The notes under the pieces were generated by a model that saw nothing but the letters and a program-made list of their open reading frames with translations, searched no databases and was not told where the DNA came from. A stretch of DNA of 46,979 bases, taken from Nitrososphaerota archaeon (lineage in GTDB: Archaea; Thermoproteota; Nitrososphaeria; Nitrososphaerales; Nitrososphaeraceae). The DNA lies in contig VBPX01000009.1 of NCBI GenBank assembly GCA_005877075.1, forward strand, positions 23,524 through 70,502, in the 5' to 3' direction. Each line of letters opens with the position of its first letter. Position 1 is the stretch's first letter. The position numbers were made by a program, and so were the translations under genes. Of the stretch, positions 3,096 through 16,074 are shown in pieces.

Positions 3096-3710
3096 TTAAT
3101 CCTCTTTAATCATTTGCATAGATAGTTCATGCCATTCAGGAGTAACATTAAGTCTGAATTTAGCACTTGTGGAATATCCATGCAATGTAGTTATTACCAA
3201 TTCAAAAACAAAGTTTCCTGTACTGAAAGTATCTTCTTTTCTGGGAAATTCTTTCCCGTTAAGACTCATTTGAGTTCCGACAAAAGCAGATTTACTTTCT
3301 TGTTCTGAGAATACAATGTTTAGAACTGAAAAACCTGTACGTGCACTAATATCTTCTTTTATATTTTTTTCAGTACTCCATTGCAAAATTTTTGGTTCTG
3401 TTTCAGGATTTTCGTTATCATCACTATTATTTTCTAAAACTCTTAATTTTGCCATACATTTTTCAGCGTAACCACGACCTGTGTTTTCAACAGCAACTCG
3501 TAGATACTTTCTCTTTGCAAGTCTTATATCGTATCGATATTCAAAGTCTTTAATGGGACAGTATGTTTTTGGTTCAGCATCTGGTTCGTAAACTATTCTA
3601 AGTTTTGGTTTACTAAAAAAGGGGCAAGTATCCCATAGCCGAAAAGTAGAGCCAATCTGACCAAAACTGTTGTTGCAACTACAGGAATAAGTTCCAAAGA
3701 CACTATTCAC
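3096..3710 (-). CDS. Passenger protein, N-terminal membrane anchor apparently frameshifted
   Basis: The continuous frame gives 204 residues from a GTG, but its first ~35 residues are odd (SCSCNNSFGQ). The neighbouring frame, from a GTG at 3703, encodes a convincing membrane helix (LIPVVATTVL, then RLALLFGYGILAPF) that would join the rest in frame if the T-run at 3615-3620 had seven bases instead of six. The body is beta-rich (KPKLRIVYEP, YLRVAVENTGRG, FRLNVTPEW), like an immunoglobulin-type or CARDB-like sandwich. The likely ancestor is a membrane-anchored beta-sandwich protein. It lies just inside the right transposon end. Function unknown. Confidence 0.6.
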   Translation of the reverse strand: MNSVFGTYSCSCNNSFGQIGSTFRLWDTCPFFSKPKLRIVYEPDAEPKTYCPIKDFEYRYDIRLAKRKYLRVAVENTGRGYAEKCMAKLRVLENNSDDNENPETEPKILQWSTEKNIKEDISARTGFSVLNIVFSEQESKSAFVGTQMSLNGKEFPRKEDTFSTGNFVFELVITTLHGYSTSAKFRLNVTPEWHELSMQMIKED

Positions 3711-3743
3711 TTTAGATGCCTCTTAGTATTTAAAGTTCGGCTG

Positions 3744-3759
3744 ATGTCCCTTAATCGAA
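3744..3759 (-). repeat. Right terminal inverted repeat of the transposon
   Basis: ATGTCCCTTAATCGAA is the exact reverse complement of 861-876. Five bases (GAGTC) separate it from the right copy of the 8-bp target duplication. Confidence 0.75.
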
Positions 3760-3764
3760 GAGTC

Positions 3765-3772
3765 ATGAAATA
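3765..3772. repeat. Right target-site duplication ATGAAATA
   Basis: Second copy of the 8-mer found at 846-853, at the outer boundary of the right transposon end. Confidence 0.7.
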
Positions 3773-3988
3773 TGTAGCTAAAAATACGGAATAAGACGAT
3801 TTTTTCAATAAAAATCGACTATCACGATATTAATAATTTTACTTTTGTAATTAATGTAAATTTATAATGTTAATTTATGAAAATGTTATTTCCTCAAAAC
3901 TTAAATTATAAATAATATCACTAGCGATATTTACATCATAATATTACATATTCATTTAAGTTATATCATAATGATGCAATCACCGCAT

Positions 3989-4961: not shown

Positions 4962-5780
4962 TTAATTTATTGTTCCTCTTTTATACGAACCAAGTATCTT
5001 AAGAAATGTGCATTTCTTTTCAATTTTATTTAATGTTTTTTTAATATTATCCTCTTCAATGTGGCCTTCCAAATCTACATAAAAATTGTATTCCCAAGGT
5101 TTTTCTTTAATGGGTCTTGACTCTATCTTGGTAAGATTTATTTTATTATAATTAAACTCTTGTAAAACTGAAAATAACGAACCTGGTGTATGTTTTAGTC
5201 CAAAAATCAGTGAGGTTCTATCATTTTTAGCAGGACTCGTTTTTTGGTCAGAGAGTACTAAAAATCTTGTGAAATTGTTTTTCCTGTCTTCTATATTTTG
5301 ATCAAGAATTTTCATATCATAAAATTCGGCCGCATTTTTACTTGCAATTGCTGCAGCGTCAAGAATTTTTTTTTCTTTTATTAGTCTTACAGATCCGGCT
5401 GTATCATAAGTTGGAATTGAATTTAAGTTTCTGTTCTTTATATAATTCCTACATTGTGCTAAGGCTTGAGGATGTGAAAGTACCCTGGTAATTGTAGAAT
5501 TATTTGGCAATGCAATTAAACAATGATTGATTTTAAGAAATATTTCTCCGACAATTTTTTTTTCTGTGTCCAATAGGAGGTCGTATATCTCATTCACTGA
5601 ACCCTCAATTGAATTTTCAATTGGTACAACTGCACAATCAATACTAGAGTCATCTAAAGCATCAAAAATATCTTGAAAGAGTTTCATTGGAACAAGATTT
5701 GAGTTTGGAAAAAACTTTCTCGCAGCAATCTCACTATATGCCCCATATTCCCCCTGAAAAGCTACAATTAATTCTCTCAA
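4962..5780 (-). CDS. pheA: Prephenate dehydratase
   Basis: Converts prephenate to phenylpyruvate in phenylalanine synthesis. 272 residues, a normal length for a monofunctional enzyme. The N-terminal periplasmic-binding-like catalytic fold has FQGEYGAYSE (8-17), VPIENSIEGSV (52-62) and the catalytic Thr in NNFTRF (168-173). The C-terminal ACT domain (about 185-270, with PGSLFSVLQEF and the ESRP motif) binds phenylalanine for feedback inhibition. TTG start: the following MRELIVAFQG is the usual family N-terminus. Confidence 0.95.
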   Translation of the reverse strand: MRELIVAFQGEYGAYSEIAARKFFPNSNLVPMKLFQDIFDALDDSSIDCAVVPIENSIEGSVNEIYDLLLDTEKKIVGEIFLKINHCLIALPNNSTITRVLSHPQALAQCRNYIKNRNLNSIPTYDTAGSVRLIKEKKILDAAAIASKNAAEFYDMKILDQNIEDRKNNFTRFLVLSDQKTSPAKNDRTSLIFGLKHTPGSLFSVLQEFNYNKINLTKIESRPIKEKPWEYNFYVDLEGHIEEDNIKKTLNKIEKKCTFLKILGSYKRGTIN

Positions 5781-5930
5781 ATTATTTATTTAAATTAAAT
5801 GAAGGGTCGATTCATATATTTTTATGTTATTAGTATTGATGTCCCTTCATGGAATAGGCGAACCGATGAGGGGATTGTTATCAGGTTGGGATAAAGTATT
5901 TAATGCTTAAGTCTATTGAATTTAACCTAA

Positions 5931-6932
5931 ATGCAATTAGATCAACAGTATATTGATCCTCTAGATAAACAACTTTTAAATGAGATTCAATGGACCTTTC
6001 CTCTATCCAGTCGTCCGTATCTCGAATTAGCAAGTAAACAGGGTCTTACTGAAGACGACGTGATGGTAAGGATTTCTTCAATGAAACGAACAGGACTAAT
6101 AAGACAGATCAACGCGATTTTTGATACAAGGAAACTAGGATATAAAAGTGCTTTAGTCGCATTTGCAGTTGAAAAAGATAAACTTGATTCAGTCGCGTTG
6201 GAAGTTAATAAACATCCCGGAGTAAGTCACAATTATGAAAGAGATCATGAATTCAACATGTGGTTTACTCTGGCTGTTCCCCCTGATGGAGTTTTAAAAA
6301 AAGATCTTGGAGTTATGGCCTCACTTGAAGGTGTAATTAAATTCCGTCTCCTGCCAACTCTAAAACTATACAAAATTGGAGTAAAACTGGACATGGTAAA
6401 TAATGATCCAGCAAATTTAACTCCTGACGATCAAGTAAAAATGATTGACAAAAAAAAATTTGAGCTTACATCAAGAGATAAAGAATTCATAAGGGAATTA
6501 CAAAAAGATTTGGAGGTAACGTCAAGACCGTTTGATACCTCCGCGAGGAATCTTGGAATCACTGTAGATGAATTATTTAAAAAAGCAAATGAGTATGAAA
6601 GCATGGGAGTAATGAGAAGGTTTGCAGCAATATTGCGCCACAGAGATGCTGGATTTACAGCAAATGGAATGATCGTTTGGAAAGTGCCGGAAGATAAGAT
6701 TGACGAGGTTGGATACAAACTAGCATCTTTTCCTCAGGTGAGTCATTGTTATAGAAGACCAGTATATCCTGATTGGCAGTTTAATCTATTTAGTATGATC
6801 CACGCAAGAACAATTGAAGCCGCCAAAAAGATTGCAATTGAATTATCTAACTTTGTAGGAATCAACGATCATAGGATACTGTTTAGCTCCAGAGAGTTTA
6901 AGAAAGAAAGAGTAAAATATTTTGTAGACTGA
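5931..6932 (+). CDS. Siroheme decarboxylase, fused AhbA-AhbB type
   Basis: 333 residues made of two homologous Lrp/AsnC-like halves: a winged-helix segment and a ferredoxin-like segment each. The first half has SHNYERDHEFNMWF (about 99-112), the second SHCYRRPVYPDWQFN (about 265-279), the signature stretches of AhbA/AhbB and NirD/L/G/H proteins. Those enzymes decarboxylate siroheme to didecarboxysiroheme in the alternative heme pathway of archaea. In many organisms the two subunits are separate genes, but here they are fused. A transcription-regulator label would be wrong despite the Lrp fold. Confidence 0.85.
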   Translation: MQLDQQYIDPLDKQLLNEIQWTFPLSSRPYLELASKQGLTEDDVMVRISSMKRTGLIRQINAIFDTRKLGYKSALVAFAVEKDKLDSVALEVNKHPGVSHNYERDHEFNMWFTLAVPPDGVLKKDLGVMASLEGVIKFRLLPTLKLYKIGVKLDMVNNDPANLTPDDQVKMIDKKKFELTSRDKEFIRELQKDLEVTSRPFDTSARNLGITVDELFKKANEYESMGVMRRFAAILRHRDAGFTANGMIVWKVPEDKIDEVGYKLASFPQVSHCYRRPVYPDWQFNLFSMIHARTIEAAKKIAIELSNFVGINDHRILFSSREFKKERVKYFVD

Positions 6933-7208
6933 TTTAAATTTTGTTCTTCATCAATTTGAATTGATCCTGTCCAATTTTTTGAATTAATTAAAACTAATTT
7001 GTACTCAAATCTTGACTAATTCATATTAATTCCTGAAACATTTCAATCTAATTTGTTACCAAATATACTACGCATGCACTCGATAAAATTATATGATTTC
7101 CAACAAAAATTTACCACTGTTTAGATAGTTTCAGGTACATGATCTGAATCAAATTCTTTGAATATTTTGCCTTATTGATGATTTTCAAAGAAGGATAGAA
7201 ATTTATTA
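6933..7208. other. Intergenic region with no gene seen
   Basis: AT-rich spacer between the siroheme decarboxylase gene and the tRNA promoter. No open frame with coding character was found on either strand. Confidence 0.6.
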
Positions 7209-7233: not shown

Positions 7234-7308
7234 GCGAAGTTAGCCCAGACTGGTTAAGGTACGAGCTTCCCAAGCTCGGGATCGCGGGTTCAAATCCCGC
7301 ACTTCGCA
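7234..7308 (+). tRNA. tRNA-Gly (anticodon CCC)
   Basis: A full cloverleaf can be folded: acceptor GCGAAGT paired with ACTTCGC and discriminator A at 7308, anticodon stem CGAGC/GCTCG around loop TTCCCAA (anticodon CCC at 7269-7271), and T arm GCGGG-TTCAAAT-CCCGC. There is no intron and no encoded CCA. It reads GGG glycine codons. Confidence 0.93.
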
Positions 7309-7520: not shown

Positions 7521-8390
7521 TTGAAGCAGGTTATTACATTCCACTCTTACAAGGGTGGTACTGGAAAAACCACTTTAGCAGCTAACTTGGCCGCATTGTT
7601 AGCTAAAAATGGAAATAATGTATGCATAGTGGACATTGACGTCTATGCTCCTAGTCTCCATGCTTATTTTGGTGATCCTGTTCAAAATAAAATCAAGAAT
7701 ACAATAAATGACTTTATTGTAGGTGCATGTGGAGTTGATGACTTATTGGTTGATGTAACACCAGTACTACAATTATCAGAAATTGGATCTTTACCGGGAA
7801 AAATAATTGGTTGTTTTGCTAGTCCAAAAAGAGAGGATATTCTCAAGATTGAAGGAGTAAAGGAAGATAAGAACAGAATGAGTATGCTAAAAAGGTTCAT
7901 TAACTTTAGAGAGGAACTAATTGAGAAAAATGATATTGATTATATAATCATGGATTCAAGTCCTGGAATCCGATTTTGGGCAATAAATGCGCTGGCATTA
8001 TCAGATATTGTATTTCTCACACTAAAAATGGGGGACATGGATATTGGAGGAACTAAGATGATTGCAAATGAAATATTGGCCCAATTCAAGGAGCAGGGAA
8101 ATACCAAATATTATCTACTGCTCAACAGAATTGCAGGTTACTGTATTCCATATTTTCAACTCGGAGAACCGCACGATAGTCAGTCTGATGCAAATTATTG
8201 TACCTTGACTCCTGTAGCAGATGATTTTGTTAAGAAATTGACTAGCGAGACGGGCATTGACATAATGACATCTATTCCATGTTATTGCGATATACAATTT
8301 GCCCAGAAGGAATTTTTAACTGTTCTTGGATATCCTGATCATCCTTTCTCACAACAGATACATCATTTAAAAAAGTTAATCGAGATATGA
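7521..8390 (+). CDS. ParA/MinD-family ATPase
   Basis: 289 residues, TTG start directly before KQVITFHSYKGGTGKTT. The deviant Walker A is at 11-18 (KGGTGKTT), the A' motif is VDIDVYAPSLH, and Walker B is IIMDSSPG. The C-terminal region has several cysteines (YCIPYF, PCYCDIQFA), unusual for plain MinD. No ParB, MinE or division genes are adjacent, so it is an orphan. The neighbour 75 bases downstream is a KaiC-like ATPase/cyclase-like protein on the same strand, suggesting a two-gene unit that localises or switches a signalling component (inference). Confidence 0.88.
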   Translation: MKQVITFHSYKGGTGKTTLAANLAALLAKNGNNVCIVDIDVYAPSLHAYFGDPVQNKIKNTINDFIVGACGVDDLLVDVTPVLQLSEIGSLPGKIIGCFASPKREDILKIEGVKEDKNRMSMLKRFINFREELIEKNDIDYIIMDSSPGIRFWAINALALSDIVFLTLKMGDMDIGGTKMIANEILAQFKEQGNTKYYLLLNRIAGYCIPYFQLGEPHDSQSDANYCTLTPVADDFVKKLTSETGIDIMTSIPCYCDIQFAQKEFLTVLGYPDHPFSQQIHHLKKLIEI

Positions 8391-8416
8391 GTAAGCATTA
8401 ATTCTTCATAGTAAAC

Positions 8417-8436
8417 ATACCTAAAAAAACAGGTAT
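8417..8436. promoter_or_regulatory. Short inverted repeat between the two ATPase genes
   Basis: ATACCT (8417-8422) and AGGTAT (8431-8436) form a 6-bp stem with an 8-base A-rich loop, 29 bases before the next start codon. It could be an operator or an RNA hairpin. The evidence is only the symmetry. Confidence 0.25.
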
Positions 8437-8464
8437 ATAGATCGAACTTAATATAATATCCAAA

Positions 8465-9882
8465 ATGACCATTCCAGGACTTGCTGAACTAACTGACGGG
8501 GAGGAAAATATTTCACCCACTTTGTTTCTCTTATCAGGTCCACCTGGAATAGGAAAGAGAGATTTCTTGAGGAGGGTTTCAATTCTAGAAAAAAATGCGT
8601 TTTTCTTTCGTCGAAAGTTACAGATAGAGAAAGAATCGAATTATTTAGCCTTAATGAGAAAAAAATCAATTCGTTATTTGTAAACCCAACCCTTCTATAT
8701 GATACGCCAAACGAAAAATCTTTAGATGAAACGTTAAAGCAAATAATTTTTTATCTTTCAGGTATACAAAAGGATGAATCCCCAGATCAAGAAAGTAGGA
8801 GAAACATCGAAGTTGAAGATAATTCTGTCTATTTTGTCATGGATTCATTAAATCACTTTTGTGATATTTTTGAGGTAAGTTTAATTAGAAAATTTTTGGC
8901 AAAACTAATTCTCCAACTGAAAAAGAGAAGAACGATGGGGATATTTACTATTGATTCTCCAATATCCGAAGAATATCATCCGATAGTGTCATTTTGTGAC
9001 GGAATAATGGAGATGAAATTTGAAGAATCTAATGATTTATTGATTAGAAAAATACGAATGCTTTCAGTAGCTGGCCATGCCATGACAAAACCGACTTGGA
9101 TACAATTTAGGATAGATAAAAATGGACGGTTCAATTTTGCCGATGATTTACTTAAATGTACATTGGATGGAAGAGTCATTCAACACCCTCCAGTTTACTA
9201 CCTTGACTTACCATTTCATTCAGAGGGATGCACAAAAACTTATAGAAAATTTATGTCAGTTTTTAAAGAGCTCGATCCAAAATATGAAATTTTAAATTAT
9301 AACTTTTGCTTTATCGATATCGTAGGATTATCCAATCCAGACTTGGCGGTTCACAGGCAGAAGGAAAAGATTGTAAAGTTAAATGAATTTATCAGTTCTT
9401 GTAATTCATTTAGGAAAATATCTGACCACTCGAAGATAATTCTTCCCTCTGGCGATGGAATGGCAATAGGCTATGAAAACAACCCTGAGTTACCATACAA
9501 GTTAAGTGTTGAGCTTCATAGTTTTCTGCGCAAATACAATAAGCGAATGGAAACAGATAATCAGATCAAGGTTAGAATTGGCCTAAGTTCTGGTCCTGTA
9601 TTCACTGTATATGACATATCAAACAAACTTAATGTTTGGGGCCCAGGCATAATAATGGCAAGGAGGGTTATGGATCTGGGGGATAGCTGGCACATACTTA
9701 TTACAGAAAATTTTGCCATGCAACTAAAACCTCTGTATGAAGAATATAGAAATAATATTAGGTTTATAGGATCCTATGAAATCAAACACGGAGAAAAAAT
9801 TAATGTTTATTCTGCATATTCTGACGATTATGGAAATGCAGAGTTGCCAGAAAAATTCAAACAAATCTATACTAGCCCATAA
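8465..9882 (+). CDS. KaiC-like ATPase fused to nucleotide-cyclase-like domain, one frameshift
   Basis: Two frames together encode one protein. Frame 1 (8465 on) carries the P-loop LLSGPPGIGKRDFL and runs off at 8683. The adjoining frame, open across 8581-9882, carries CVFLSSKVTDRE, a Walker B (NSVYFVMDS), a KaiC-like end, and then a class III cyclase homology domain: FIDIVGLS, PSGDGMAIGYE and RIGLSSGPVF, then GPGIIMARR. Adding one A to the A7 run at 8589-8595 joins them. Both metal-binding aspartates are present, but the transition-state Asn position is Ile, so classical cyclase activity is uncertain. Frame loss could be real, a sequencing error or transcriptional slippage on the A-run. Confidence 0.75.
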
Positions 9883-9997: not shown

Positions 9998-10618
9998 ATG
10001 AAGCAGAATAAGAAGGACAATAATATAAAGAAGGATAAAAATCCCGATCCTAAAAAAAAGAGGGAAGATAGAAGTTATTTTGCTGTAACTCGGAAAAGAA
10101 GAAATAGAAACCTCATGATTATTGTGCCGGCAGTGGCAGTACTTATCGCAATAATGGCCTTCGCAGTTAGTATTTATTCTGGAAATTTGACAAAACCGAG
10201 TCATAAATTCGGTGCTCTTGGTTCTGAACATGTCCACGCAGCATTTGCAGTAAAGATTAATGGTATTAAATTAGATTTTAGCCAAGATAAGTACCAGGTT
10301 CGATCTAAGTATATCCATGTGGAAAATAATGATGGAAATACACTGCATAGACATGCAACAGGTGTTCCCGTTGGAGAATTCTTTCGTAGCATAGGTATGA
10401 ATGTTAGTGACAGCTGCTTTATCCTTGAAAATGGAACAAATTATTGCAGTAACGGAAATTCAAATCTGGAATTTTATGTTAACGGAAATAAAACAAACTC
10501 AATCGCAAATTATGTCCTCAAGGATAACGACAGAATATTGATAGTATATGGAAATAAGAACAAAATGGAAACGGAGCAGGATCTGGATGCACTGAGACTC
10601 ACTCAGATAAAGAAATAA
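9998..10618 (+). CDS. Single-pass membrane protein of the thiol-redox operon
   Basis: 206 residues. A lysine-rich cytoplasmic N-terminus (1-38) precedes one membrane helix (about 39-62, IIVPAVAVLIAIMAF). The extracellular domain has conserved-looking histidines (SEHVHAAFAVKING, YIHVENNDG, TLHRHATG) and two cysteines (DSCF, NYCSN) suited to disulfide formation. It lies 147 bases upstream of ccdA on the same strand, so it may be a substrate or partner of the CcdA/thioredoxin pair. I do not recognise a named family. Confidence 0.75.
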   Translation: MKQNKKDNNIKKDKNPDPKKKREDRSYFAVTRKRRNRNLMIIVPAVAVLIAIMAFAVSIYSGNLTKPSHKFGALGSEHVHAAFAVKINGIKLDFSQDKYQVRSKYIHVENNDGNTLHRHATGVPVGEFFRSIGMNVSDSCFILENGTNYCSNGNSNLEFYVNGNKTNSIANYVLKDNDRILIVYGNKNKMETEQDLDALRLTQIKK

Positions 10619-10764: not shown

Positions 10765-11517
10765 ATGGTCGATCCTGGGATACTTATATCCGCACTTGCA
10801 GGTGCAGGGTCTTTTTTTTCACCATGCATACTACCAATTTTACCTGCCTTTATTTCATATTTATCAGGAACTACACTTAATGAAGTCCAAGATTCATCAG
10901 GACAATCACTTAGGCTAAAAAAAGCGACCAGATTAAACATATTTTTGAATACAGTATATTTTGTTCTAGGTTTCTCTCTTGTTTTTGCTGTATTAGGCGT
11001 ATTTCTAAATAGTGTGTTTATGACTGTTGGTTTAGGATTTCAAAACGTGCTAACTTCTGTGGGAGGACTAGTTATTATAGGATTCGGCGCCTATTTGATA
11101 CTGTCAACAAGACTAAGACGTCTTAATTTTGAAAAAAAACTTTATTCTATTCCTAAATTTAAGACCAGCTACATCACTTCTTTTATATTCGGCGCCGCCT
11201 TTGCAGCTGGTTGGACTCCGTGTGTAAGACCCATATTGGGAAGTACACTTACATTGGCCGCAACTGCGCCTGGAGCTGCTTACAATTTATTATTGGCGTA
11301 TTCAATGGGCCTTGGGGTACCATTTTTAATAACAAGCATATTTTTTTCACAAGCTACAAGTTTAATTAGAGAAATGGTAAAGCATCTAAAATATTTTAAT
11401 CCTGCTATGGGGATCATGCTTATAATACTTGGAATATTAGTGTTTACCAATAATCTCAGCATACTTGGTAATTTTCCTCTAGCCAATCAAATTATTAATA
11501 TTGAAAGAGGGTTTTAA
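10765..11517 (+). CDS. ccdA: CcdA/DsbD-type membrane electron transporter
   Basis: 250 residues, about six membrane helices. The redox-active cysteine motifs of the family are both present: FFSPCILPILPAF (about 17-29) and GWTPCVRPILG (about 150-160). CcdA moves reducing equivalents from cytosolic thioredoxin to extracytoplasmic thioredoxin-like proteins. Its stop is followed immediately by the ATG of the thioredoxin-like gene, so the two form an operon. Confidence 0.9.
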   Translation: MVDPGILISALAGAGSFFSPCILPILPAFISYLSGTTLNEVQDSSGQSLRLKKATRLNIFLNTVYFVLGFSLVFAVLGVFLNSVFMTVGLGFQNVLTSVGGLVIIGFGAYLILSTRLRRLNFEKKLYSIPKFKTSYITSFIFGAAFAAGWTPCVRPILGSTLTLAATAPGAAYNLLLAYSMGLGVPFLITSIFFSQATSLIREMVKHLKYFNPAMGIMLIILGILVFTNNLSILGNFPLANQIINIERGF

Positions 11518-12642
11518 ATGAACAAGGATAACATTAGTGCATTGCTAACTGGGATAGGTGTAGTTACTCTCATAGTGGGATTTGCGATTTATTTTAACAA
11601 TCCTGAACTGAACAAAGTCCCTCTCCAAGGAGGAGGCATCTCAAATGTTCAACTATCAATAGATAAATCTCACTTCAAAAAAGCACCCGAATTTCAGGGA
11701 ATAACATCGTACATTAATACAAATGAGACAAAAATATCCGATCTTAAAGGAAAAGTGGTATTGGTTGACTTTTGGACATATAGTTGTATTAATTGTATTA
11801 GAACGTTACCATACCTTGTCGACTGGAATCAAAAATATTCAGACAAAGGATTGGTTATTGTAGGAATTCATACCCCTGAATTTGAATTTGAAAAAAATAT
11901 TGATAACGTCAAGCAAGCAGTAACAAGATTTGGAATTAAATACCCAGTATTGTTGGATAATGACCACGGCACGTGGAACGCATATCAAAACAGTTATTGG
12001 CCAAGGAAATATCTTGTGGATGCAGAAGGTTACATAAGGTATGATCATATTGGAGAGGGAGGTTATATGGAAACTGAAAAAGTAATACAGAACTTACTAT
12101 CAGAAAGATCCAAGCAGCAAGGGATGAAGATACTCAATCTTAATCAAACTAAATTATCTAATCCAGATTTGCAATCCATTGATTTCAATCAAATCAAAAC
12201 ACCTGAGTTATATTTTGGGTACCAATATGCAAGAGATGGACTTGGAAATATTGAAGGATTTAATCCCGAAAAAACAGTCGACTATAAAATAACTAGTTCA
12301 AACCTAGAGCCTAATATTATTTATCTTCAAGGATTATGGAAAAACAATGCAGACAACATGGAACTTGTTGGAAAAAATGGAAAAATAATGTTAGTTTATT
12401 CTGCAAAGTCTATCAATATTGTAGCAGGCGGAAAAGGGCAGGCAACCGTTAAGGAAGACAGTAAAGCTAGTCAAATTATGAATACTTCTTTTAAGGGTAA
12501 GGACATAAATGTTCAAGGTAAATTCACAATAGACGCACAGAGGCTCTATAATATTGCGGATCATACAAATTACGGAAACCATTACATCGAAATAAATGCA
12601 GAAGGAAGTGGGTTTAAAGCATACACATTTACATTTGGATAA
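11518..12642 (+). CDS. Membrane-anchored thioredoxin-like protein, DipZ C-terminal type
   Basis: 374 residues. One N-terminal membrane helix (about 8-25), then a TlpA/ResA-like thioredoxin fold with active site SCINC (C90, C93) in DFWTYSCINCIRTLPYL and the PRKYLVD cis-proline region, then a ~150-residue beta-sandwich (from TPELYFGYQYARDG to the end). This domain order equals the part of mycobacterial DipZ that follows its CcdA-like half. With the upstream ccdA it forms a split DipZ. It reduces or isomerises disulfides outside the membrane in the family's known role. Confidence 0.88.
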   Translation: MNKDNISALLTGIGVVTLIVGFAIYFNNPELNKVPLQGGGISNVQLSIDKSHFKKAPEFQGITSYINTNETKISDLKGKVVLVDFWTYSCINCIRTLPYLVDWNQKYSDKGLVIVGIHTPEFEFEKNIDNVKQAVTRFGIKYPVLLDNDHGTWNAYQNSYWPRKYLVDAEGYIRYDHIGEGGYMETEKVIQNLLSERSKQQGMKILNLNQTKLSNPDLQSIDFNQIKTPELYFGYQYARDGLGNIEGFNPEKTVDYKITSSNLEPNIIYLQGLWKNNADNMELVGKNGKIMLVYSAKSINIVAGGKGQATVKEDSKASQIMNTSFKGKDINVQGKFTIDAQRLYNIADHTNYGNHYIEINAEGSGFKAYTFTFG

Positions 12643-13992: not shown

Positions 13993-16074
13993 TTGTATCA
14001 AAAATATTTGATATTAGCTTTACTGATATTGATAAGTGGCAATGTCATTAATTTTAGCTTACAATTTTATAACATTTATTATGTTAATGCAGAAGACAAT
14101 CAAGCTCCAAAAGCTGATGATCAAAAGGTATCCGTAGATGCAAATGATAATGTAAAGATTACCTTAAAGGGTAATGATGATGATAAGGGTGATGAAATAA
14201 AATTTGACATTATAGCAGACCCATCTAATGGAAAACTTGATAACTTTGACAAATCAGAAGGTACTGTTACTTATGTTCCAGAGAAGGATTATTCAGGGGA
14301 TGATAAATTTAAATTCAAAGTAAATGATGATAAGGGAGCTGAGAGCGATACAGCAACTGTAGATATAAGTGTGAAGGAAACGAGTCAACTTAATGGAAAA
14401 GAAGAAACTGGGCCGGGTAATTCTGTGGATAAAAGTAGTAACCAGACGAGTATAGAACAAACTGCGGAAGCGAGCTCTGTAGAGGAACCTAATCAAGCTC
14501 CAAAAGCATTTGATCAAATTGTATTTGTAGACCAGAATGGCCAAATTGATATTAAGCTAGTTGCAGAAGACGAGGATAACGATCAGTTGCAATTTGACAT
14601 AACATCAGATCCATTACAGGGAAGCCTTGATAATTTCTATAAAGAAAAAGGTACTGTTACTTACGTGCCCCAGAAAGATTATTCTGGAGAAGATAAATTC
14701 AGTTTTAAAGTTATTGATGATAAGGGAGCTGAAAGTAACGTAGGAACTGTAGATGTAACTGTTGAAGTAGTTAATCAGCCTCAAAATGCTAATGAAAAGG
14801 TAGTTAATCAGTCACTTGGTGAAGAAGCGACACAAAGTACATCTAGTACAACCAATCAAGCTCCAAAAGCCGATGATCAAAGCATATTTGTAGATTCTAA
14901 TAGTAAGGCGGAAGTAAGTTTAGCTGGTAATGATGCTGATAATGATCCCATACAATTTGCAATAGTATCTGAGCCATCTGATGCAACTTTGCATAATTTT
15001 GATATGTCAAAAGGCACTGTTACTTATGTTCCAGAGAAAGACTATACGGGAAATGATTCTTTTACATTCGACGTGGCTGATGACAAGGGGGAGAAAAGCA
15101 ACGTCGCAACTGTGAATGTAGACGTAAAAGAAGTGAATGATACTAATCAGGCTCCTGAGGCTTTTAACCAAAGTACAAATGAATCAAATTCAAATAACTA
15201 TAGATATCTCACATGGAGTGAAGGTGATGAGGAAGATAGGTTCATACTTTTTGCACGCAGTATGGATGGGGGAAACACTTTTTCTTCACCTATTAGTTTA
15301 ACTGGCAATGTTCATTCGACTGTATTCAATCCAAAGGTTTCATCATCAGGGAATAATGTCTACGTAGTATGGCAGGGCCAATCTAAATCAGGCAATCAAG
15401 ATATCTTCTTAAGGAAAAGCTCAGATTATGGATCAACTTTTGGTGATATAGAAAATCTAAGTAACGATCCAGGAGGCTCAGGGAATCCAGAAGTAGCTGT
15501 GGTTGGAAACAGTACACACGTGTCCTGGGAAGGGACAACTCCTGGTAATAACTTTATATTCTATACTAAAAGCAACGATGGATCCGATTTTGAATCCCCT
15601 CAAAAATTAAGCACTAATAATGGAATATCTTACAAACCCGAAATTAAAGTGAAACACAATGATGGTGCTGACAGCTTTACTTATAAGGTAACTGACGATA
15701 ACGGGGCTGAAAGTAACATAGCGACTGTCAATGTAAATATTGGTACGGTCAATCAGTTTCCCGATAAAGTTGATGGAAAAAGTGTATCAATAGACTCAAG
15801 TGATAAGACTGATATTAAATTGAAGGGAATTGATGATGATAAAGATCCCATTAGATATGAAATAGTATCGGCTCCATCTGATGGAAGTTTAAAAGATTTT
15901 GATCCCAATACTGGTACTGTAACCTATGTCCCGAATGAAAATGACAGAGTAGACGTATCTTGGCATAATTACGTAAATGGACATGATAAAATTCTGACTG
16001 AAAATGTAGATAATGGTGATAAAGTTAGCAACTTTGAACAAGCGAATAATGATCCCTTTAAATCAAGGCGATAA
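13993..16074 (+). CDS. Large secreted mosaic protein: Ig/cadherin-like repeats with BNR segment
   Basis: 693 residues from a TTG, with signal peptide (LILALLILISG, about 5-30). Cadherin/Big-type repeats of ~90 residues start with NQAP at about 36, 167, 288 and 384, with a fifth at 587. Shared marks are GTVTYVP(E/Q)KDY and DDKGAES. Repeat 4 is split: only its first and last parts remain around ~150 residues of BNR/sialidase-like sequence (SMDGGNTFSSP, GNNVYVVWQG, SSDYGSTF). Repeat 5 also changes to BNR-like sequence (DRVDVSWHNY) and then ends. No C-terminal anchor is seen. Probably a surface or adhesin-like protein. The mosaic looks recombined. Confidence 0.82.
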   Translation: MYQKYLILALLILISGNVINFSLQFYNIYYVNAEDNQAPKADDQKVSVDANDNVKITLKGNDDDKGDEIKFDIIADPSNGKLDNFDKSEGTVTYVPEKDYSGDDKFKFKVNDDKGAESDTATVDISVKETSQLNGKEETGPGNSVDKSSNQTSIEQTAEASSVEEPNQAPKAFDQIVFVDQNGQIDIKLVAEDEDNDQLQFDITSDPLQGSLDNFYKEKGTVTYVPQKDYSGEDKFSFKVIDDKGAESNVGTVDVTVEVVNQPQNANEKVVNQSLGEEATQSTSSTTNQAPKADDQSIFVDSNSKAEVSLAGNDADNDPIQFAIVSEPSDATLHNFDMSKGTVTYVPEKDYTGNDSFTFDVADDKGEKSNVATVNVDVKEVNDTNQAPEAFNQSTNESNSNNYRYLTWSEGDEEDRFILFARSMDGGNTFSSPISLTGNVHSTVFNPKVSSSGNNVYVVWQGQSKSGNQDIFLRKSSDYGSTFGDIENLSNDPGGSGNPEVAVVGNSTHVSWEGTTPGNNFIFYTKSNDGSDFESPQKLSTNNGISYKPEIKVKHNDGADSFTYKVTDDNGAESNIATVNVNIGTVNQFPDKVDGKSVSIDSSDKTDIKLKGIDDDKDPIRYEIVSAPSDGSLKDFDPNTGTVTYVPNENDRVDVSWHNYVNGHDKILTENVDNGDKVSNFEQANNDPFKSRR

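Follow-up and report, generated by a model that had tools for sequence, protein, structure and literature searches.

The window, a 46,979-nucleotide stretch of a contig from a Nitrososphaerota archaeon, carries a gene for a ParA-type ATPase from a family with an invariant C-x-C motif and histidine, and members of this family recur beside partners that share one small Cys/His finger. In the operon of the window the finger lies between a KaiC-like domain and a degenerate class III cyclase domain; elsewhere it is found on histidine kinases or stands alone. We propose that these genes form a ParA-centred signalling module that responds to a metal or to thiols through its finger-bearing partners, and we give this reading a probability of roughly 0.45. 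The first-pass annotation had suggested a nucleotide-sensing or positioning switch. It overlooked the frame break described below, the finger, the finger kinases, the stand-alone fingers and the invariant C-x-C and His of ParA. The last four of these hint at a sensor of metal or thiols no less than at a sensor of nucleotides. The features of the locus are collected in Table 1.

Table 1. Features of the ParA locus and its surroundings, in window positions.
Feature	Position	Strand	Remarks
ParA/MinD-type ATPase	7521..8390	+	TTG start; Walker A HSYKGGTGKTT; IPCYCDI and HPF toward the C-terminus
KaiC-like gene, 5' portion, read in a frame of its own (MTIPGLAELTDG..GPPGIGKRD)	8466..8684	+	homologous to the beginning of L002 711-2138
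Frame break, 13 bases of L002 absent	8562..8563	+	alignment with L002
Rest of the KaiC-like domain, in the second frame	8563..9145	+	Walker B FVMDSLNHF; the listed ORF has its first ATG at 8839
Core of the TRASH/YHS-like metal finger, CTLDGRVIQHPPVYYLDLPFHSEGC	9157..9231	+	ligand pattern C, D, H, C; weak L24e/TRASH/YHS-like fold of the finger family
Class III cyclase homology domain	9277..9882	+	FIDIVG metal Asp; LPSGDG metal Asp; GPGIIMARR with Ile replacing Asn
One-TM protein	9998..10618	+	invariant His and Cys in the outer part; no Pfam family above cut-off
CcdA/DsbD-like membrane protein and redoxin/thioredoxin-like protein	10765..12642	+	order conserved in L002-L006 and L008

The ParA gene and its invariant residues

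The ParA gene proposed in the first-pass annotation proved to be a real ParA-like ORF, which matches Pfam AAA_31 with an E-value of 1e-19. With a KGGxGK[TS] Walker A and this ParA-family profile match it belongs to the ParA/MinD deviant Walker ATPases. The best NCBIfam match, for this protein as for its relatives, is AAA_KGGVGR (NF047398). Since its score of 77 bits is below the curated cut-off of 90, the protein is not a member of the KGGVGR-variant family, and it differs from this nearest NCBIfam match in having KGGTGK and the invariant CxC and His. The TTG in Table 1 seems to be the real start, because in close loci the Leu codon is retained and the frame opens just two codons earlier or has no ATG there. 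A tRNA-Gly (CCC) gene is positioned immediately 5' of the ParA gene, at 7234-7308. We discarded a plasmid origin: the protein found no match at E 1e-10 in 72,556 plasmid records.

Across 100 aligned ParA members (98 from the family, together with L157 and L173), neither the P-C-x-C motif nor the HPF His ever varies. The two cysteines and the histidine are residues 255, 257 and 275 in the alignment numbering, which runs one higher than that of the ORF. Cys209 is present in 98/100. Five more distant ParA homologues also keep PCxC and the HPF His. We further compared ATPases within three genomes, where 10 of 18 Pfam CbiA loci yielded an ORF with the deviant-Walker pattern: PCxC was present in all five ORFs of the family and absent from all five others, which are of ParA/Mrp/ArsA type. 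The loop of MinD and Soj that corresponds to the PCxC/HPF region presumably sits at the nucleotide base.

The fusion gene is intact in relatives and broken in the window

The claim that a KaiC-like and a cyclase domain are joined in one polypeptide stands for the relatives and fails for the window itself. In intact relatives KaiC, finger and cyclase form a single protein of ~476 residues encoded by one gene, not by separate unlinked ones. In the window, the KaiC-like gene starts with an ATG at 8466, reads through the Walker A motif GPPGIGKR and meets a premature stop at 8684, and the remainder up to 9882 lies in a different frame. The closest intact homologue, L002, is 92% identical across the long ORF. 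It reads GAGATTATTGTAGGGAATTTCTTG where the window has GAGATTTCTTG, so that 13 bases are absent, and both flanks of this gap align without any further gap. Eight of the nine close loci are open across the break region, and two of these eight (L007 and L010) are truncated by the contig end further on. In L008 the fusion gene (5590-6998) is broken too, elsewhere than in the window.

The codons after the break have an omega of 0.07 between the window and L002, and the same value was obtained for L002 against L003, both of which are intact. For the 92 codons immediately after the break, omega is 0.20. Such strong purifying selection downstream suggests that the break is either a recent loss or mutation, or an assembly error. 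From this copy, the strain would produce at most a finger-cyclase piece of 347 residues. Programmed frameshifting would yield the fusion despite the two frames, and an A-rich stretch does lie immediately 3' of the break. However, 13 bases rather than one are absent between otherwise gap-free flanks, and none of the intact relatives changes frame at this place; we dropped this explanation as hardly credible.

An intact second fusion copy is present on contig C48 of the window genome (G000, 1.97 Mb split over 123 contigs), behind a ParA that is truncated by the contig end. We also considered an in-frame TAG seen in this second copy (G000:C48 and others), which turned out to be the gene's own stop: in L031, the 527 codons at 569-2152 hold the whole protein.

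The KaiC-like domain and the finger

The KaiC-like part reported in the first-pass annotation is present, although the window fragment matches PF06745 with an E-value of just 0.013, compared with 7e-9 for the intact L002. The KaiC fold with Walker A and Walker B is thus found in the intact homologue, while the window copy is frame-broken. In the structure predicted for L002 (mean pLDDT 82.7, pTM 0.48), residues 1-231 are KaiC-like, with Z about 22 to KaiC and 2.7-2.8 A over 202-203 residues, and a cyclase-like domain is also present. The VIA and Foldseek lists for this model are dominated by the KaiC half. Foldseek returned adenylyl and guanylyl cyclases as well, the cyclase half being seen only in rows like 5o5l and 3et6.

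The Walker A Lys is kept in 39/40 fusions (there is a gap in the remaining one) and the Walker B Asp in 36/40. The catalytic Glu of KaiC/RecA-like ATPases follows strand 2. In the corresponding column, which was assigned by eye, none of the 40 fusion rows has a Glu, and L157 and L173 have ESP. Since the Glu is missing from the fusions, though it is kept in the KaiC-finger proteins of the other class, the ATPase of the fusion may be dead.

Between the KaiC-like and the cyclase domain we found a finger with the motif C-x2-C/D ... H/D-x2-3-C/H, followed by Y..KL...YG. Over the 40 fusions the first ligand is always Cys, the second Cys (35) or Asp (5), the third His (33), Asp (6) or Cys (1), and the fourth His (23) or Cys (17). 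The replacement of the second Cys by Asp in 5/40 fusions of the window's family counts against the proposed module. In the PDB, the model of a stand-alone finger (pLDDT 80) has weak matches to ribosomal L24e, the ZMYM5 TRASH domain and part of toluene monooxygenase, with Foldseek E-values no better than 0.05 and VIA Z about 5, and Pfam matches to YHS and VATC are under the cut-off. The weakness of these matches likewise counts against the module. Both L24e and toluene-4-hydroxylase are named as TRASH/YHS members in PMC4626032.

The same finger is found outside the fusion. Upstream of ParA copies without an adjoining fusion there is often a histidine kinase, recognised by Pfam HisKA and HATPase_c and frequently bearing the finger at its N-terminus, and hhalign of the fusion finger with the finger of these ParA-linked kinases gave a probability of 98 and an E-value of 1e-13. 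Stand-alone finger ORFs of ~60-90 residues, with little beyond the finger, lie near ParA/kinase loci. The regular expression for the finger hit 44/48 fusion ORFs and 17/30 ParA-near kinase ORFs, compared with 1/557 other ORFs. In L151 of the window genome (580-1433), a finger-histidine kinase is apparently divided between two frames, with Tyr in place of the first Cys of its finger.

The cyclase domain

ORF 8839-9882 comprises the second KaiC half, the small Cys/His finger and the class III cyclase domain. The latter agrees with the first-pass annotation and matches Pfam Guanylate_cyc above the cut-off (E 2.5e-7), and its relatives in the PDB include the Ma1120 cyclase. It had been noted from the window that both metal aspartates are kept and that the catalytic Asn is replaced by Ile, and this holds throughout the family. 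Both metal Asp residues (D289 and D335) and the transition-state Arg are present in all 40 fusions. At the Asn site we observed Ile in 38 and Val in two, and Asn in none. The base-specifying Asp site is Asn in 40/40, and the base-specifying Lys site is Leu in 39 and Phe in one. The Asn, Arg and base-specifying positions were assigned after the usual motif of class III cyclases. Most of the invariant columns of the fusion alignment fall within this domain.

Since the transition-state Asn is missing, we do not class the domain as an active cyclase. It probably binds NTP and metal and makes cAMP poorly if at all. The earlier view that this is no plain cAMP enzyme fits the loss of Asn and the change of both base-specifying positions in every fusion.

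ParA, the fusion and the finger occur together

The intact fusion protein matched 93/300 genomes of the class, with full-length matches only in the window's family (f1), and ParA was found in 40/45 genomes of this family. The two-gene order of the window recurs in other genomes; its absence there would have refuted the first-pass annotation. ParA is located within 600 bp in 34 of the 43 f1 fusion segments, upstream on the same strand in 32 and inverted in two. Two further segments have ParA 2.1-2.5 kb away, and the other seven, three of which are at a contig edge (G183:C11, G255 and G222:C35), have none on the contig. Several genomes carry two ParA-fusion operons.

In 17 whole genomes, the scan with finger alignments, whose query contained no stand-alone ORFs, placed a family ParA no further than 4 kb from 17/18 fused, 14/16 stand-alone and 1/3 other fingers, where about 0.6% of the genome would be expected by chance. 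The two stand-alone exceptions are both in the window's genome, on other contigs. That this genome has other finger copies away from ParA also counts against the proposed module. Seen from the ParA side, a finger lies within 4 kb of 65/98 copies; the lack of one near the other 33/98, some of them at contig ends, is a further point against the module. Fourteen of the 33 directly adjoin a one-TM protein like that of the window. Five loci (L045, L048, L062, L083 and L092) line up a kinase, ParA and the fusion (or a finger-cyclase) one after another, together with a stand-alone finger. In one of them, L062 of genome G015, the partner of ParA is a 255-codon finger-cyclase that has no KaiC part. The partner type clusters on the ParA tree, with 14 changes compared with a mean of 48.6 after shuffling (0/200 shuffles were as low), and near-copies contribute to this clustering. 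In L037, where an orphan ParA and a stand-alone finger lie, we noticed by eye a separate small cyclase-like ORF of another kind close to them (3133-3840, MMVDMVNST).

ParA together with a KaiC-finger protein also occurs without the cyclase. In another class, ParA of G609 (L157) is followed by a KaiC-finger frame of 291 codons that lacks the cyclase, and ParA of G762 (L173) overlaps a KaiC-finger frame of 283 codons, after which there is another KaiC. At E 1e-15 the KaiC-finger protein matched 89/250 genomes of this class, mostly via KaiC alone. After G609 itself, the best matches were G762 (349 bits, full length) and G652 (186 bits, ending before the finger), followed by matches of 109 bits or less. 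No ParA of this family was found in the stretch retrieved around the G652 match. We retrieved ten stretches around other ParA homologues of the phylum. One of them is L157, and in the other nine (L158-L166) no such finger, KaiC-finger or kinase adjoins ParA. In L159 a KaiC-like gene lies ~3.5 kb from ParA.

Cyclase matches in family f2 were rejected as members of the same system. Those retrieved are mostly proteins of 400-490 residues that combine the cyclase domain with another part and have no KaiC, and their stretches contain no ParA of this family. Only G015 (L062), with ParA and a finger-cyclase, was kept.

Neighbouring genes

The one-TM protein downstream of the cyclase domain has an invariant HxH, IH and HxH together with two Cys, and in other genomes of the family its homologues are positioned directly 3' of ParA. 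Together with the CcdA-like and redoxin-like neighbours it would suit a metal or thiol theme, though these genes may be unrelated to the module. In passing, we noticed no gene of named metal function, for example a copper ATPase or chaperone, close by, which speaks against a metal response. Further away, 5931-6932 encodes a two-copy AsnC-type protein with a Pfam NirDL-like (siroheme decarboxylase) HTH match (5e-28), and 13993-16074 encodes a protein of 693 residues with four Big_9/cadherin-like repeats.

Discussion

In the module that we propose, a distinct ParA-type ATPase with its invariant C-x-C and His would act as the hub. Its partner carries a TRASH/YHS-like finger, putatively a treble clef, with the KaiC-like domain on the N-side and the degenerate class III cyclase on the C-side, and in sibling loci the same finger is borne by a histidine kinase or stands alone. 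The gene order, the common finger, the conserved residues and the KaiC and cyclase folds are observed here, and the working of the module is proposed as follows. The finger would bind a transition metal or report the thiol state. Copper would be the likeliest metal by analogy with two proteins, both from outside this family: Cu2+ switches on a class III cyclase through the YHS domain in Mycobacterium phlei (PMC4626032), and CopR senses copper via a TRASH domain (PMC7830388). On binding, the KaiC part may change its oligomeric state or its ATP state, and the signal would be passed on to the fused output, either the cyclase domain or the kinase. ParA, switched by ATP, would then bind the complex and place it in the cell or gate its output.

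A fuller version of this model is possible but rather unlikely to hold in all its parts. ParA, with a metal site of its own made of CxC and His, would be the hub, and the TRASH-like finger an exchangeable plug. The KaiC-finger protein would be the original partner; a non-cyclising cyclase would have joined it later as an NTP-sensing output, and kinases and free fingers would compete for the hub. All of them would sense the status of transition metal (copper) in ammonia-oxidising archaea and position the cellular response or gate it.

The finger is the sole part common to the fusion, kinase and stand-alone partners of ParA, so it could also be a mere docking tag with a structural metal. ParA would then be an ATP-driven positioner that spaces the kinases and the KaiC-cyclase clusters, as might be expected from its nearest homologues of solved structure, among them Soj and MinD, all of which are of ParA type. 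Plain positioning would not need the invariant CxC and His of ParA, however, and a third of the ParA copies (the 33 counted above) have no finger nearby. We regard positioning as a tentative alternative, on the doubtful side. We find it improbable that the cyclase is active after all and makes a cyclic nucleotide, perhaps other than cAMP, under the control of KaiC and ParA. The invariance of the metal Asp residues and the Arg over 40 sequences and the concentration of invariant columns in this domain would suit such an enzyme. Nevertheless, Asn and both base-specifying residues are gone from all 40, and the KaiC-finger proteins of the other class do without a cyclase.

Much less probable still is a role in biological conflict, as an anti-virus system in which the cyclase or the KaiC part would serve as sensor or effector. 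NTP-dependent conflict systems contain cyclase and MinD/ParA domains (PMC7159879), and the KGGVGR-variant domain is the top NCBIfam match of our ParA. On the other hand, ParA is not patchy in the family (40/45 genomes), we saw no toxin-like partner, and PADLOC gave just weak matches to ParA or mad8 and none for the L002 fusion or the kinase.

To our knowledge, the inputs and partners of archaeal KaiC-like ATPases are mostly unknown. With the proposed metal- or thiol-responsive module, one class of KaiC now has a genomic partner (ParA), a candidate input (the TRASH-like finger) and exchangeable outputs (the cyclase domain and the histidine kinase). The ParA/KaiC/finger system is conserved across a family of soil archaea and can be traced to another class. 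It makes directly testable whether a ParA can serve as a metal-gated signalling hub rather than as a partition motor.

Each part of the system is a known family or near one, and their combination is possibly undescribed: within the open-licence PMC literature we found ParA neither with a KaiC-cyclase nor with this finger, and the combination may have been mentioned before. A role as archaeal signal transduction hubs has been proposed for KaiC-like ATPases (Makarova et al. 2017, cited in PMC5847659). As in the protein described here, those hubs have a KaiC-like domain, partly without the catalytic Glu ('iKaiC'), fused to signalling domains; unlike here, the word cyclase is absent from PMC5847659, and its available text mentions neither a TRASH-like finger nor a ParA partner. 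CopR, too, is an archaeal signalling protein and senses metal by a TRASH-type domain, but the accessible part of its report (PMC7830388) presents it as an HTH transcription factor with no ATPase or cyclase. Another close system is the YHS-domain class IIIc adenylyl cyclase of M. phlei, which combines a TRASH/YHS-type finger and a class III cyclase in one protein. As far as the available text of PMC4626032 describes it, the M. phlei enzyme has a C-terminal finger and all six catalytic residues, and no KaiC or ParA. In contrast, the fusion described here has its finger N-terminal to the cyclase, has lost the catalytic Asn and carries a KaiC-like domain ahead of both.
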